From a virus, in IMG/VR virus record IMGVR_UViG_3300050015_000091, positions 1-32,557 of that record: DNA of 32,557 bases, one strand, 5' to 3'. Below are positions 2,823-8,500 of this stretch, in pieces. Made by a program: the position numbers and the translations under genes. Position 1 is the stretch's first letter; each line of letters opens with the position of its first letter. The notes below the pieces were generated by a model. It was given only the letters and a program-made list of their open reading frames with translations, did no database searches and was not told the origin of the DNA.

Positions 2823-3089
2823 ATGAGGTTATTTGATAAACTGAAAGAACAGACTAATGCGATAATTCCAAGTCAGTGTTATTTGCACTTTGACACGCAT
2901 GGTTTGATAATACGGTTTCAAGTTGAACGTGACATATCACCACCAATTTTGATTGATGAAACTATGGCACGAGCGATAAGTGAATACCTAACAGAGTATC
3001 TGACTGTTTTTGATGATGTGAAAAAGCATGGTTGGAAAAATAGCGTGAAAGGAAAAGACAATGGAAGTCAAACAAATACCACTAAGTAA
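2823..3089 (+). CDS. Hypothetical protein (88 aa)
   Basis: I chose ATG 2823 because GAAAGGA precedes it and because an upstream GTG at 2787 lies inside the promoter. The protein starts MRLFDKLKEQTNAIIPSQCY, appears to have a beta-rich middle (HFDTHGLIIRFQVERDI) and a C-terminal helix, and ends in a polar tail. It overlaps the ParB-like gene by 29 bases, so the two are translationally coupled. It may belong to the same module, but no family is recognised. Confidence 0.6.
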   Translation: MRLFDKLKEQTNAIIPSQCYLHFDTHGLIIRFQVERDISPPILIDETMARAISEYLTEYLTVFDDVKKHGWKNSVKGKDNGSQTNTTK

Positions 3090-3648
3090 GATTAAACCAG
3101 CAGAATATAACCCAAGAACTTTGACAAAAGAGGAGTTCGCTGGACTAAAAACTAGCATTGAAACATTTGGGCAAGTTGAAAATCTGGTAGTCAATAAAGA
3201 TGGCACGCTGATTAGTGGACATCAAAGATTTGAAGTTATGAAGTCATTGGGCTGGAAAACAGCAGCAGCGCACCAAGTTGACCTCAATAAAAGGCAAGAG
3301 AAAAAGCTCAATATCACCATGAATAACCAAGCAATCGCTGGTGCATGGGATAGCATAAAATTATCAGAGATTTTGGAAGAACTGAAAAGCGATGACGATT
3401 ATGAAAGCCTACGCTTGAATAAATTAGAACCATTGGACTTATCTGGGCTTAATCAGACCAGTCTTGATGACGGTGAAGCACCTAAAAACCAAGAGTATGA
3501 AACTGGTGGTGGTATCAAGCAATATACAATCGTATTTGACACTATTGACCAACAAGATATTTTCATGGAGTGGGTGCAAGGCTTGAGAGCAGCATACCCA
3601 GACGGTGAAACAATCGCTGAACGCATAATCTTGGCAATTCAACCATGA
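3061..3648 (+). CDS. ParB/Srx-fold nuclease-like protein
   Basis: Residues 1-100 form a ParB N-terminal-like domain: an opening strand with PLSKIKPAEYNPR, then LVVNKDGTLISGHQRFEVMK, with the signature I-S-G-H-x-R (residues 51-56) that in this fold binds and hydrolyses nucleotides. The C-terminal part has an acidic linker and a short beta/alpha segment (IKQYTIVFDTIDQQDIFMEW). Such free-standing ParB-like proteins in phages often pair with methyltransferases or PAPS-reductase-like enzymes. Here the next gene overlaps by four bases and is exactly such an enzyme. It is not a partition protein by context, because there is no ParA and no plasmid-like module. Confidence 0.85.
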   Translation: MEVKQIPLSKIKPAEYNPRTLTKEEFAGLKTSIETFGQVENLVVNKDGTLISGHQRFEVMKSLGWKTAAAHQVDLNKRQEKKLNITMNNQAIAGAWDSIKLSEILEELKSDDDYESLRLNKLEPLDLSGLNQTSLDDGEAPKNQEYETGGGIKQYTIVFDTIDQQDIFMEWVQGLRAAYPDGETIAERIILAIQP

Positions 3649-4736
3649 ATATAAAGCATTTCACTGACACTGATGTACTGACGGCTGCAAAAGACCGTAT
3701 CAAAGAGGTTATAAACACCTTTGACAAGTGCCATGTGATGTTTAGTGGTGGCAAAGATAGCCTTGTGTTGCTGCATTTGACACAGGAAGTCTATGACGAA
3801 ATGGGTATCAAAGAAAAAGTCAACGTGATATTCAGAGATGAGGAAATAATACCCCAAATTGTTATTGATTTTGTCATAAAACATTGGAAATCTGGCAAAT
3901 ATAACTTTAGGTACTACGCAACGCAGCTCAAAAGCGAGAAGTTTATCATGGGCAAAAAGGTGGCGTATATTCAATGGGACGAAAACCGCAAATGGATACG
4001 TGAAAAGCCAGAGGGCGCACTTGAGTTCCCAGGTTTAGTTTTAGACCAGTACAATAGTGACTTTAAGATAACAGAGGGTGATAAGGGGCTGATTGCCTTA
4101 CTGACTGGACAAAGAGCCGATGAAAGTTTGGTACGTCTTGGCAGTGTTTTGAACAAATTAAACAAACCCTTTATATCTAAAAGTGGCAGCGATAATTGTA
4201 GAATAATTAAACCATTGTACGATTGGAACGAGAGCGATATTTTCAAGTATATGCATGATAAAAGTATTGAATATTGCCCAATTTACGACCAAGAGTTATT
4301 CAATGGCTCTAATCTACGTGTTTCAACACCACTACACGCTGAAACATCAAAGCGTATTTATCAATTGAAAACACAAGACCCACAATTCTACAATCAGATA
4401 ATAAGTGTATTCCCCGAAATGGAAACTCAAGCACGATATTACAAGGACTTTGCCAATGGGCGCAAAGACATCATGGAGTTATACCCTCGTGGTTGGAATG
4501 GCGTAATTAAATACATCGATGATAACTTAGAGGGCAAAACAAGGGCGCTGGCACTCAACCGCGTGCAAACTGCTATCAAGTTGCGCGCGAACAAGATTGA
4601 GCAGTACCCACAGTCGCTTGGTGGTTACCCAATACGCTACGTGTTCCAAATGGTTATCAATGGTGCATACAAGCGTCAAATACTACCGAAAAATAAAGCC
4701 TCAAAATTAGATTTGGAATATGAAAATATCGTCTAG
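3645..4736 (+). CDS. PAPS-reductase/IbrA-like PP-loop ATPase
   Basis: The N-terminus has the PP-loop SGGKDS (residues 34-39) of N-type ATP pyrophosphatases, followed by VNVIFRDEEI and, downstream, LLTGQRADES, KPLYDWNESDIFKYMHD, YCPIYDQELFNG and LRVSTPLHAETSKR. This set fits the phage PAPS-reductase family and IbrA/DUF3440 proteins rather than metabolic CysH. DndC, which works in DNA phosphorothioation, shares the same core. It likely adenylates a substrate, possibly for sulfur or nucleotide transfer, but the substrate is unknown. It overlaps the ParB-like gene, and a second ParB-like protein of IbrB type follows at 6135. The 363 residues look full length. Confidence 0.85.
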   Translation: MNIKHFTDTDVLTAAKDRIKEVINTFDKCHVMFSGGKDSLVLLHLTQEVYDEMGIKEKVNVIFRDEEIIPQIVIDFVIKHWKSGKYNFRYYATQLKSEKFIMGKKVAYIQWDENRKWIREKPEGALEFPGLVLDQYNSDFKITEGDKGLIALLTGQRADESLVRLGSVLNKLNKPFISKSGSDNCRIIKPLYDWNESDIFKYMHDKSIEYCPIYDQELFNGSNLRVSTPLHAETSKRIYQLKTQDPQFYNQIISVFPEMETQARYYKDFANGRKDIMELYPRGWNGVIKYIDDNLEGKTRALALNRVQTAIKLRANKIEQYPQSLGGYPIRYVFQMVINGAYKRQILPKNKASKLDLEYENIV

Positions 4737-4740
4737 GTTA

Positions 4741-4749
4741 TGCTATAAT
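4741..4749 (+). promoter_or_regulatory. Extended -10 promoter TGcTATAAT
   Basis: A perfect TATAAT (4744-4749) with TG at the extended position lies directly after the stop of the PAPS-reductase-like gene. The -35 is poor (TGAAAA at 4721-4726). It serves the AT-rich HNH-like gene at 4773 through an AAGGAGAACAGC leader (4757-4768). Confidence 0.7.
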
Positions 4750-4772
4750 AACAGGTAAGGAGAACAGCAAAA

Positions 4773-5201
4773 ATGAAAAAACTAGGGCTTGAAGCACATA
4801 GCAGAAACAACAAATTATATGTTTGTTGGCAAAATATGATTAGGCGTTGCTATGATAATAAAACAAATCACTTTGAAAATTATGGTGGTAGAGGGATTAT
4901 AGTCTGTGATGATTGGCGCAATTTTGATAATTTTTATAATGATATGCATATTAGTTACAAAATTGGTTTACCACTTGATAGAAAAGACAATAATGGTAAT
5001 TATTCAAAACATAATTGTCATTGGGTTACTCAAAAACATCAATTAAATAATACGAGTAGAAATAGATTTATAACCTATGGTGGAAAAACTTTGACATTAT
5101 CACAATGGGCAGAAGAAATTGGCGTAAAGCGTAGCACTTTTGCTCAACGATTTTATGTTTATAAGTGGAGTTTGAATAGAATATTTGGGGGTATTGTGTA
5201 A
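4773..5201 (+). CDS. HNH-like, homing-endonuclease-type protein
   Basis: The protein carries the pattern YGGRGIIVCDDWRNFDNFYN (residues 37-56), LDRKDNNGNY (68-77) and NCHWVTQKHQLNN (81-93). These are typical of a family of phage HNH-like endonucleases, followed by a C-terminal DNA-binding segment (GGKTLTLSQWAEEIGVKRST) resembling NUMOD or HTH tails of homing enzymes. The gene is visibly more AT-rich than its neighbours and has its own promoter and ribosome site. It sits between otherwise overlapping genes, which suggests a free-standing homing gene inserted into the module. It also overlaps the next start (TAATG). Nuclease activity is inferred from the family. Confidence 0.75.
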   Translation: MKKLGLEAHSRNNKLYVCWQNMIRRCYDNKTNHFENYGGRGIIVCDDWRNFDNFYNDMHISYKIGLPLDRKDNNGNYSKHNCHWVTQKHQLNNTSRNRFITYGGKTLTLSQWAEEIGVKRSTFAQRFYVYKWSLNRIFGGIV

Positions 5202-5581
5202 TGGCAACTGGTATTTACAATGGCTTCAAAGGGGACTTACGAGATAAAGTTGGACAACTGCAAGAGTTGTTGATACGTGATGGCTATATGCCACCGCATG
5301 ATAAATGCTATTTGTGCAACCAAACACAAGGGCGCATACTCTATCATCTTGAGGACTACACGAAAGTCTTGGACAGCTCAATGCCTATGTGTTTTATGTG
5401 TCATATGATGTTGCACTGTTGCATAAAAAGACGACCAGATTTGTGGGAAGCTTATCAAAAAGAGGTATGCAATGGCTATCAATATCTATTACAGGGTTAC
5501 GAAGTGCAGCGATTATTTGATGAACTTGACAAAGGTAACTACCATTTGGAAAAAATAAACAATGCGAGGTTATTTGTATGA
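5201..5581 (+). CDS. HNH/zinc-finger-like protein (126 aa)
   Basis: Two Cys pairs (C36/C39 and C64/C67) surround H49 and are followed by H68 and H72 (CYLC, YHLEDY, CFMCHMMLH). This matches small phage and bacterial proteins annotated as HNH-type or zinc-binding, where the His-Glu-Asp-Tyr and C-x-x-C-H segments form a treble-clef-like site. The C-terminal half appears helical. It overlaps its neighbours at both ends (TAATG before, ATGA after), so it is an integral part of the ParB/PAPS-reductase/methyltransferase operon. It could be the nuclease arm of this module, or it could be a small DNA-binding protein. Confidence 0.65.
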   Translation: MATGIYNGFKGDLRDKVGQLQELLIRDGYMPPHDKCYLCNQTQGRILYHLEDYTKVLDSSMPMCFMCHMMLHCCIKRRPDLWEAYQKEVCNGYQYLLQGYEVQRLFDELDKGNYHLEKINNARLFV

Positions 5582-6135
5582 GATTTAATGAACATCATGA
5601 CGTAATAATGGCTGGTGGTTATCCAAAAATACATGACAAAATCAAGTCAATCATCAGACCAATGGATATAAAGGGCAAAGTTGTCTTTGATGTTGGTGCT
5701 TGCACTGGCTCACTTGGACTGTGGGCTGCCGCACAGGGCGCAAAGGCTGTTTTGATAAATGATAGTAACCAAGAATACTTGGATAGAGCCAAATTGTACG
5801 CTATGCAGCACGCAATCAAGAACAACTTTGACATTGATAAAATGATATTCAACCTTGCCAAAGTGGACGGCTTTTGGAAATGCCCAATTGATATTCAAAC
5901 TGTAATCGCTAGACGCTTTGTTTATTTGCTACGTGATGAGGGCATACGAACTAACTTTGTCTATCAACTCAAACAGAACGGCTGTAAGGTGGTGTATTTA
6001 CAGGGGTTAGTACGTGTCAAAAATCATGTTGAGCCATTGTGGAATGTTGACCTTGAGGCGCAATCATTCATAGACGCAGGGTATAAAGTGACATACAATA
6101 ATGGTAATGACCTCATAAGATTGGAGTTGCGATAA
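5578..6135 (+). CDS. Class I SAM-dependent methyltransferase-like protein
   Basis: Residues 33-72 hold the SAM-binding core: GKVVFDVGACTGSLGLWAA (motif I) and AKAVLINDSNQEYLDRA (an acidic end of the second strand). The N-terminus (HHDVIMAGGYPKIHDKIKSI) resembles substrate-lid segments of small-molecule or RNA methyltransferases. No (D/N)PP(Y/F) motif is visible, so a classical N6-adenine or N4-cytosine DNA methyltransferase is unlikely, and the substrate is unknown. The 185 residues make a compact domain. It sits inside the IbrA/ParB module and overlaps both neighbours, so it probably acts in the same pathway. Confidence 0.75.
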   Translation: MRFNEHHDVIMAGGYPKIHDKIKSIIRPMDIKGKVVFDVGACTGSLGLWAAAQGAKAVLINDSNQEYLDRAKLYAMQHAIKNNFDIDKMIFNLAKVDGFWKCPIDIQTVIARRFVYLLRDEGIRTNFVYQLKQNGCKVVYLQGLVRVKNHVEPLWNVDLEAQSFIDAGYKVTYNNGNDLIRLELR

Positions 6136-6662
6136 TGAAGCAACCGATAAATAGCGTTGACTGGCTAGACGCAAAAGCATTGACCGCCAATGACTACAAT
6201 CCAAATGTGGTGCTTGACCAAGAGTTGCGCCTATTGAAGTTTAGTCTATTACGAACTGGTTGGCTGCAGCCGATACTTATTACCAAGAACATGGAAATCA
6301 TTGACGGTTTTCACAGGTGGTGGCTCACACAGAACGATGAGGCAATCAAAAACATGACCGATGGGCTTGTGCCTTGCGTAGTGCTTGACCTAGATGAACC
6401 ACAGCGCATGATGTTGACTATTCGTATCAATCGAGCCAAAGGCAACCATGTTAGTTTCAAAATGCATGAGATTATATCAAAGTTGTATAATGAAATGGCA
6501 GTACCACAGGACGTAATTGCAAAGGAAATTGGCGCAGACGCACACGAAATAAACCTACTGCTTCAAGAGGGTGTATTTGCAGCCAAAAATATCAAAGAGC
6601 ATAAATACAGCAAAGCATGGATACCAGTCAAGAAAGTTGAAAAAGACAATGGCAAAAACTAA
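6135..6662 (+). CDS. IbrB-like ParB-domain protein
   Basis: This second ParB-like protein shows YNPNVVLDQELRLLKFSLLR, WLQPILITKNMEIIDGFHRW (D-G-F-H-R in place of S-G-H-x-R, residues 57-61), then a helical region with a likely HTH (VPQDVIAKEIGADAHEINLL). The YNPN / IDGFHRW form is what I associate with IbrB proteins, which occur with IbrA-type PAPS-reductase-like proteins. It overlaps the small terminase start by 14 bases, so the module is coupled to packaging genes. It could guide the module to DNA or take part in packaging. The enzymatic role is not established. Confidence 0.8.
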   Translation: MKQPINSVDWLDAKALTANDYNPNVVLDQELRLLKFSLLRTGWLQPILITKNMEIIDGFHRWWLTQNDEAIKNMTDGLVPCVVLDLDEPQRMMLTIRINRAKGNHVSFKMHEIISKLYNEMAVPQDVIAKEIGADAHEINLLLQEGVFAAKNIKEHKYSKAWIPVKKVEKDNGKN

Positions 6663-7167
6663 AAAAAGTCAAGACGCAACCAAAGCCTCAAAAGTCACAG
6701 GCGATGAGTTGATTAGGTTCGTACCCACAAAGGAAATCAATGACCAATTTGGTAGACCAAAAGTTATTAGCCTAGAAGTGTTGAAAGACTTGAAATATGC
6801 TTTTCTAATTGGTTGCACAAATCGTGAAGCAGCATTATACGCAGGGATTAGTGAACAAACCTATTACAATTTTGTGAATGGGCTAGACGTTGAATTAAAT
6901 GGTGACTTTTTGGGGCTAGTTGAGGCATGGAAAAATGATATGATATTGGCTGCTCGTCAAACTTTACGCAGAGCAACATCGACACCAGAACACGCAAAGT
7001 GGTTATTGGAACGTAGGCGCAAAGATGAGTTCGCACCTCGTACTCAACATGAAATAAAAGAGGTTAGCGACTTTGACAGTCTAAGCGATGAAGAATTGGA
7101 AAAGATAGCAAATGCAGGACATACAGCAAATCAAGGCGCAGATAGAACTAGCGAAACGCAGAAGTAG
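6649..7167 (+). CDS. terS: Terminase small subunit
   Basis: I chose ATG 6649 (MAKTKKSQDATKASK), because earlier in-frame codons lie inside the preceding gene. A central helix-turn-helix (NREAALYAGISEQTYYNFVN, about residues 58-77), further helices, and a charged C-terminus ending in SDEELEKIANAG fit TerS. The protein recognises the packaging site on concatemeric DNA and loads TerL. It overlaps TerL by 56 bases and the IbrB-like gene by 14 bases. No strong ribosome site is visible, so translation may depend on coupling. Confidence 0.8.
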   Translation: MAKTKKSQDATKASKVTGDELIRFVPTKEINDQFGRPKVISLEVLKDLKYAFLIGCTNREAALYAGISEQTYYNFVNGLDVELNGDFLGLVEAWKNDMILAARQTLRRATSTPEHAKWLLERRRKDEFAPRTQHEIKEVSDFDSLSDEELEKIANAGHTANQGADRTSETQK

Positions 7168-8500
7168 AAACCCCATAGGTGGCTTCACGTGGTTCGTGTA
7201 TAACGTGTTCAGCGCAAGTTTCGAGTGCTTTGTTGGCGGTGACTATATTGATGATGTCTGTAGTGGCATGGAAGCGCACGACTGGACTATGGACGTTACA
7301 GGGCGTGATATGTTCAAATCAACACGCCTATATGCCCAAGTGATGTATGACATTTTCACTGCTGAAACAGACGTTGAGGGACATTATTTTTCATATATTT
7401 CAACGCTGTCACGCTATCATCTAGCCAAAGTGAAACAGATGATTAGTCGTAACCCATTCTATAAGGGCATGAAAGACTTGAACACGCAGTCAGATAGTAT
7501 TATTGACTACTGGAATGGCAAAGCACGTGTCAGTGTTACGCCAGAGGGCTTGCTATCATTCAAACGTGGTATTCACGCAGACCGTATCTATATTGATGAC
7601 CCCTTGAAAGACCCAGAGAACAAACTTGCGCCTGTGACTATTCATCGTATCAACCGCATTATAACAACCGAAGTCTATCCAATGGTAAACAAAGGCGGCA
7701 AATGCCGTATTGTTGGCACGCCACAAACATACGATGACTTTTTCTTTGATGAGCAACTGCAAACCAAGTTCAAGACACGTATTCGTGACAGCATTGTTGA
7801 TGAAGCCAACAAAATCAGTCTATGGCCAGAATGGAAAACCTTTGCTGAACTCATGACAATACGTGAAATTATTGGTGAAAAGACGTTCAACCAAGAATAT
7901 CGTGCCAAACCAGCCTACACTGAGGACAGTTTTATCACACGCAAATCATTACAGAAGTTAGTAGACCCAGATTTGATAAACCAACGTGAATATGATGGTG
8001 ACAATGACGTTGTAGCAGGGTATGATATAGGCAAACACAAGCACCCAGCGCACCTTGCCGTATTTGAACGGTGGAAAGATGAACAACGTGGTGTCTATAT
8101 GTACAAAGAGTTATTATCACAGTGGTTTGACAATTGGGACTATGAAGCCCAAGTCAATCATTTAATTGAAATAATCATGTTGTTCAATATAAGCATTTTG
8201 AGGTATGATAATACCAGAGGCGAGTTTGAGGGTTTTGACGAACAAGGAAAACTACCCAAACAAATGAAACCTGTAATCTTTGGACTAAGGAGTAAGAACG
8301 CAATGGCAGCCAGTTTTGATAGCATAGTCACAGGCGAACGTGCAAGTTTCATCAATGACAAACGTCAAATTGACCAAATCTTAGCTGTCACAAGTGACTT
8401 ACAGGCATTTGAAAGCGCAGAGGGGCATGGCGATAGCTTCTGGTCAGTGGCTATGGCTCTAACTGAAGAAAAAGAAAAAGTTTATAGAGTAAGGACTTAA
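7112..8500 (+). CDS. terL: Terminase large subunit
   Basis: This is the packaging motor and headful or site nuclease. A degenerate Walker A (GRDMFKST, residues 64-71), Walker B (RIYIDDP, 158-164), coupling motif GTPQ (202-205), and the RNase H-like nuclease triad (AGYDIG D305, LRYDN D366, GHGDSFW D441) are in the expected order. Its 462 residues fit a normal size. The overlap with TerS and a three-base-class spacing to the portal gene are standard. The gene starts at ATG 7112; no other in-frame ATG occurs before residue 53. Confidence 0.95.
   Translation: MQDIQQIKAQIELAKRRSRNPIGGFTWFVYNVFSASFECFVGGDYIDDVCSGMEAHDWTMDVTGRDMFKSTRLYAQVMYDIFTAETDVEGHYFSYISTLSRYHLAKVKQMISRNPFYKGMKDLNTQSDSIIDYWNGKARVSVTPEGLLSFKRGIHADRIYIDDPLKDPENKLAPVTIHRINRIITTEVYPMVNKGGKCRIVGTPQTYDDFFFDEQLQTKFKTRIRDSIVDEANKISLWPEWKTFAELMTIREIIGEKTFNQEYRAKPAYTEDSFITRKSLQKLVDPDLINQREYDGDNDVVAGYDIGKHKHPAHLAVFERWKDEQRGVYMYKELLSQWFDNWDYEAQVNHLIEIIMLFNISILRYDNTRGEFEGFDEQGKLPKQMKPVIFGLRSKNAMAASFDSIVTGERASFINDKRQIDQILAVTSDLQAFESAEGHGDSFWSVAMALTEEKEKVYRVRT

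Follow-up and report, generated by a model that had tools for sequence, protein, structure and literature searches.

What function could be served by a run of genes that places a PP-loop ATPase of the IbrA type, two ParB-like proteins, a small Cys/His protein and a putative methyltransferase directly ahead of the packaging genes of a virus? The question is raised by the IMG/VR virus record IMGVR_UViG_3300050015_000091, the whole 32.6-kb (32,557-nucleotide) stretch of which is referred to here as the window. An earlier, sequence-only reading of this DNA had described a single unit of six overlapping genes fused to the packaging operon, and had suggested that it modifies DNA or a nucleotide by means of sulfur or methyl chemistry. 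The present analysis reveals a conserved phage module, composed of ParB1, IbrA, a tailoring enzyme, the small Cys/His protein and ParB2, followed by the terminase genes terS and terL, which by its gene content is common to many unrelated phages. It is proposed, with a probability of approximately one half, that this module represents a phage DNA-hypermodification system, the mark of which would be made before packaging.

The IbrA-ParB2 pair and its junction with the packaging genes

At the center of the module stand IbrA and the second ParB-like protein, ParB2. A search with the window IbrA sequence returned 18 viral loci, and a ParB2 relative was located downstream in each of the 17 with room for it, while a separate ParB2 search showed IbrA nearby in 74 of 77 loci among the best 80 of 238 relatives, the other three of the 77, on contigs related to one another, being without it and the three further loci being cut off. 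Annotated phage records (50,697) held 214 IbrA and 223 ParB2 matches, with agreeing counts per genus. IbrA and ParB2 therefore constitute a near-obligate pair, and because ParB2 co-occurs with IbrA in both searches and in the record tallies, it is ParB2, not ParB1, which represents the IbrB-type partner. The sequence-only reading had pointed to IbrA/IbrB pairs, and is corrected here in that the partner is the second rather than the first ParB-like protein. The features of such a pair, namely, a PAPS_reduct protein with SGGKDS and a ParB protein with DGFHR and an NRARG-type motif, are both present in the window, where the two genes are kept apart by those for the HNH, CxxC and methyltransferase proteins. 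Outside the pair, ParB2 relatives without IbrA were observed beside a 617-amino-acid helicase-like protein (loci L087, L088 and L090), and a second, divergent PP-loop protein is encoded beside IbrA in L046 (4081 to 4869) and L078 (3131 to 4198).

The same pair is encoded by the adjacent ybdN and ybdM genes of Escherichia coli (L159, 2679 to 4501), whose products score 318 bits against the IbrA profile and 178 bits against the ParB2 profile, respectively, with DGFHR and NRARG conserved. IbrA/IbrB and YbdN/YbdM share families and adjacent order with the phage module; the E. coli pair differs in lacking ParB1, the CxxC protein, a tailoring enzyme and a terminase. The name IbrA/IbrB for the pair is already in use; the copies in phages carry annotations, in many cases misleading, of phosphoadenosine phosphosulfate (PAPS) reductase and ParB nuclease.

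Within the IbrA clade of the window (26 rows, 100/100 support), ParB1 and a downstream terminase are encoded with the pair in most cases. Ten representative open reading frames downstream of the module, taken from this and other clades, all encode large terminases, and these span PHROG families 2, 9, 15, 38, 979 and 10250, from which it follows that the junction with the packaging genes is recurrent and was not inherited with one terminase. Across 62 non-redundant loci of all clades, ParB1 and terminase were both present in 28, ParB1 alone in 5, terminase alone in 1 and neither in 12, the rest being undecidable; these tallies are biased by terminase profiles seeded mostly from ParB1-type loci. 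The ties to packaging genes proposed earlier are borne out and recur with unrelated terminases; in the window, the ParB2 gene overlaps terS by 14 bp. The sequence-only reading had, moreover, been staked beforehand on linkage of its genes in related phages, and it survives on this point, such linkage being evident in the neighborhood searches.

All six open reading frames of that reading lie where it placed them, head to tail on the plus strand and for the most part overlapping (Table 1). The ParB1 and IbrA genes share 4 bp, as read from the sequence; a further 4-bp overlap is found at position 5578, and 1-bp overlaps of the form TAATG occur at positions 5201 and 6135. The series is interrupted by a 36-bp gap (positions 4737 to 4772) between the IbrA stop codon and the HNH gene, which holds a promoter-like site. 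The HNH gene has no counterpart in related modules in the locus survey, and no other part of the region matches Twort-like phages of Staphylococcus at the DNA level, the HNH genes of those phages being 66 to 72% identical to it. On account of this absence, this similarity and the gap with its promoter-like site, we judge the gene to be a probable homing insertion that stands outside the module, and the earlier view of a single six-gene unit must be amended to this extent.

The small Cys/His protein was correctly counted as a module member and recurs across related loci, about 30 in the first survey; a search with the window protein alone returned no relative. Its invariant residues are C36, C39, H49, Y53, C64, C67, H68 and H72, and a likeness to HNH proteins is suggested by the pattern C..C-H-ED-Y-C..CH...H together with a weak PDB match to the HNH domain of IscB (E = 0.11). 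In L107 (2015 to 2761), the CxxC protein is fused to a DUF488-like domain.

Table 1. Predicted genes of the module and adjoining packaging genes in the window
Feature	Position	Strand	Matches and motifs
ParB1	3061..3648	+	PF02195 1e-6; phrog_620 2e-34; ISGHQR
IbrA/YbdN-type PP-loop ATPase, putative activating enzyme	3645..4736	+	PF01507 7e-16; phrog_2302 1e-87; SGGKDS
Homing-type HNH endonuclease gene (putative)	4773..5201	+	phrog_3377 2e-47
Small HNH-like Cys/His (CxxC) protein	5201..5581	+	phrog_2340, weak at 3e-3
SAM-methyltransferase-family protein, exchangeable tailoring slot	5578..6135	+	phrog_11826 1.5e-10; no [DN]PPY
ParB2, IbrB/YbdM-type ParB protein	6135..6662	+	phrog_2159 6e-64; IDGFHRW
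terS, terminase small subunit	6649..7167	+	phrog_4102 1.7e-17; ATG at 6649
terL, terminase large subunit	7112..8500	+	phrog_38 1.5e-11

Elsewhere in the window, genes for an endolysin, a DnaD-like loader, an exonuclease and NinB are located downstream of the module, and the protein encoded at positions 1539 to 2021 joins a zinc ribbon to DUF1064 and is similar to Holliday junction resolvases of phages (PF06356, 8e-17; phrog_190, 2e-25).

Exchange of the tailoring enzyme

The gene between those of the CxxC protein and ParB2 had been read as that of an S-adenosylmethionine (SAM) methyltransferase without a (D/N)PPY motif, an assignment upheld by the PHROG match; the [DN]PP[YFW] motif of DNA adenine and cytosine-N4 methyltransferases is absent from the protein. 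A search with the window methyltransferase sequence alone returned no relatives, which were instead reached through the module loci and then through a family profile. The 14 aligned sequences share the motifs FN...YPxIHD, DxGxxTGLL, ARRxxPE and LEGR, and only the SAM loop is more strongly conserved in them than the invariant ARR. The profile search yielded 14 viral and 2 genome loci, with the gene inside the module in 15 of the 16 (L109 being cut off after ParB2), and all 18 annotated phage records with the methyltransferase, from Bacillus, Arthrobacter and Mycobacterium phages, also carry the IbrA-ParB2 pair. The gene is found on either side of the ParB2 gene, always within the module, to which this methyltransferase family is specific. 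The sole module-type methyltransferase without IbrA and ParB2 is that of L112 (2712 to 3272), close to a DPPW adenine-methyltransferase-like gene and a terminase.

Among 32 non-redundant loci of the window IbrA clade, the slot holds this methyltransferase in 14, a GNAT acetyltransferase in 12 and a 2-oxoglutarate (2OG)-Fe(II) oxygenase in 1, no such enzyme being present in 5 and methyltransferase and GNAT together in none (hypergeometric P of 8e-5 for exclusivity, the rows being related and hence not independent). The identity of the slot has changed at least six times on the IbrA tree. In the Arthrobacter phages Salgado and Kovu, the methyltransferase of the one is precisely swapped with the GNAT gene of the other between flanks of 81% and 74% identity, and a similar replacement distinguishes L034 from L113. 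The oxygenase, present on one contig (L032), has HalD as its top Pfam match (6e-9), HalD being a family of free amino-acid halogenases. In L031 (6506 to 7285), the GNAT acetyltransferase is fused to the CxxC/HNH-like protein.

Other IbrA clades carry ectoine-synthase-like cupins (PF06339, 6e-34), bicupins, a glucosyltransferase-like protein, other methyltransferases or a sodium symporter. The ectoine-synthase-like cupin lies between IbrA and ParB2, away from a terminase, in L067, L069, L074, L085, L086, L092, L095, L096, L098 and L099, and cupin modules usually also encode a protein of approximately 140 amino acids (cluster C1) next to the cupin. A sodium:solute symporter (SSF) is encoded in or beside the phage IbrA module of L038 (693 to 2141; phrog_20720, listed as of unknown function, 5e-122), with relatives in L036, L037, L039, L040, L042 and L068. 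A class II glutaminase assignment considered for L042 (4163 to 4747) was dropped, since neither a Pfam nor a PDB match was obtained.

Predicted chemistry and its precedents

The IbrA family alignment shows conservation of SGGKDS, DxE, GxRxxES and PxYDWxxxD. The closest PDB relatives of IbrA are CysD (1e-11) and FAD synthase, followed by PAPS reductase; the first two, its nearest solved relatives, adenylate sulfate and flavin mononucleotide, respectively. No cysteine is conserved among the 86 IbrA sequences, the best column reaching 58% and being occupied by alanine in the window. In CysH, PAPS reductase relies on a catalytic C-terminal cysteine within an ECGLH motif, and no motif of this type is present in the translated window IbrA open reading frame. 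DndC, the PP-loop protein of DNA phosphorothioation, possesses conserved cysteines for its Fe-S cluster and for sulfur transfer (PMC10853773), which IbrA lacks. Because a conserved cysteine is absent, both PAPS reduction and DndC-like sulfur transfer are argued against. From an IbrA-like enzyme, we would expect a reaction in which a substrate is adenylated and then attacked by a small nucleophile. The idea that the module modifies DNA or a nucleotide remains the best reading of it, shorn of its sulfur chemistry.

ParB1, a ParB N-terminal-domain protein that holds the same position in related modules, resembles the N terminus of phage DNA methyltransferases (phrog_498, 2e-30; PADLOC MTase_II, 6e-20), and an association of ParB domains with DNA methyltransferases has also been noted elsewhere (PMC12783734). 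In ParB2, DGxHR and an NRAxGxH motif are invariant, and sequence constraint is far stronger than in ParB1, pointing to a role in catalysis or nucleotide binding. Neither has the architecture of a ParABS-type ParB, in which the ParB_N domain precedes a central parS-binding domain, ParB1 covering positions 5 to 99 and ParB2 positions 9 to 137 of the 186 in TIGR00180, both far below its cutoff.

Hypermodification of DNA is favored in part because two systems in the literature join ParB proteins to DNA-modifying enzymes. In phages encoding CmoX/CmoY, glycine is ligated to 5-carboxymethylcytosine in DNA by an ATP-dependent enzyme that resembles asparagine synthetase, and ParB-domain genes co-occur (PMC12783734). 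Both would have in common a phage setting, neighbors with ParB domains and a ligase that uses ATP, forms AMP and acts on DNA, the activity of the present module being predicted from its genes; CmoX/CmoY differs in that a C5-carboxymethyltransferase and CmoA are needed to make the handle. Neither a C5-methyltransferase nor CmoA was matched among the module genes, and IbrA belongs to PF01507 and is not an asparagine-synthetase homolog. In the Dpd 7-deazaguanine system, DpdB, a ParB-like ATPase, is described as required for insertion of preQ0 into DNA (PMC12839542), so that here, too, a ParB-like protein partners a DNA-base-modifying enzyme (DpdA); no tRNA-guanine transglycosylase-like DpdA or preQ0 genes were seen among the module genes. 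Dnd/Ssp and BrxP likewise combine a PP-loop PAPS-reductase-like protein (DndC/BrxP) with a ParB-family protein (DndB), but the profile similarity of IbrA to them is confined to the PP-loop region and the conserved cysteines are missing. Tests of the module genes and of further genes in the window revealed neither the DndA desulfurase nor DndD/DndE, the window being a possibly incomplete genome. A weak profile match, to TilS, serves as a lead: this PP-loop ATPase acts on tRNA, adenylating a base carbonyl so that lysine attaches.

In the mechanism that we propose, the group that IbrA would adenylate with ATP is a carbonyl, a carboxyl or a phosphate, so that a small, probably amine-bearing nucleophile could be attached. 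ParB1 and ParB2 would keep the DNA in place or remodel it, and/or carry out phosphate transfer, as do the ParB-like partners in other DNA-modifying systems, and the slot enzyme would cap the attached group, with methyl in the window and acetyl in sister phages. Each phage might in this manner carry a chemically different mark, which could defeat different restriction systems. The chemical steps of this scheme are all predicted, the analysis itself having established linkage, family membership, exclusivity and exchange of the genes. It is tentatively suggested, as a more specific possibility, that the module constitutes a distinct class of hypermodification, in which a DNA base would receive an amino-acid-like group through IbrA and two ParB proteins, in a lysidine-like manner and with no preinstalled handle, with methyl-, acetyl- and hydroxyl-adding enzymes diversifying the mark and YbdN/YbdM being a simpler, unrecognized form.

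Alternative functions

A DNA hypermodification system would be expected to show just such a fixed core, with swappable group-transfer enzymes, beside the packaging genes. Several observations weigh against it. The core pair occurs without tailoring genes or terminase in E. coli ybdNM, in a streptococcal phage and in a mycobacteriophage, and its basic job, therefore, need not concern phage DNA. A sodium symporter, present in some modules, would be odd among DNA enzymes, and the window methyltransferase is itself divergent (20 to 31% identity), lacking the glutamate of ARRxxPE. IbrAB is, in addition, reported to co-activate prophage eib genes (Sandt 2002, as cited by later work).

Some of these points favor a target other than phage DNA, such as tRNA, the pool of nucleotides, a host protein or an amino-acid-like metabolite in free form, the effect of which might be to disarm a defense or alter metabolism; we consider this explanation somewhat unlikely. 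The ectoine-synthase-like cupins, HalD-like oxygenase and symporter all indicate small amino-acid-like substrates, and host ybdNM lies away from DNA-modification genes, the operon being repressed by YbdO/CitR and regulated together with citrate genes (PMC9068703); the literature searched gave no function for ybdNM. The presence of two or three ParB-family proteins and the terminase linkage are, however, hard to square with a metabolite enzyme, as is the kinship of ParB1 with DNA methyltransferase N termini with a target other than DNA.

Regulation of late gene expression or packaging, with ParB2 on DNA and IbrA as its nucleotide-sensing partner, would accord with the co-activator label of IbrAB and with the location of the module directly upstream of the terminase. 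It is, nevertheless, unlikely, since IbrA retains all PP-loop signature residues, as in an active enzyme, the matches of both ParB proteins to the ParB partition model end in its N-terminal portion, and the exclusive methyl/acetyl slot would be left unexplained. It is less probable again that the slot is an accessory-gene hotspot beside the terminase, with the methyltransferase, GNAT and oxygenase as unrelated cargo and IbrA/ParB as a separate two-gene unit. Terminase-adjacent genes do differ among phages, and a homing HNH gene has been inserted in the window module, but the methyltransferase is almost absent elsewhere (18/18 and 15/16 in the module), never accompanies GNAT (0/32) and remains in the module on whichever side of ParB2 it lies, and a fusion joins GNAT with the CxxC protein. 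Sulfur chemistry, whether PAPS reduction or DndC-like DNA phosphorothioation, is highly improbable, as the PAPS_reduct fold and a weak similarity to DndC and BrxP are outweighed by the missing cysteines and C-terminal motif and by the failure of family searches to reveal DndA, DndD or DndE genes in the possibly incomplete genome of the window.

The literature searched contained neither an account of the full module, of the module-specific methyltransferase family or of the methyl/acetyl slot exchange, nor experimental work on the module in phages; a related prediction may be contained in Iyer et al. 2013, which lay outside the search. Annotations usually assign the IbrA-ParB2 pair to sulfur metabolism or to plasmid partition, and it appears instead to form the core of a phage module that is widespread and in which the chemical tailoring is interchangeable. 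If DNA is indeed modified, hundreds of misannotated phage genes would be explained, and the module would bring a novel base chemistry as well as a novel means of evading restriction.

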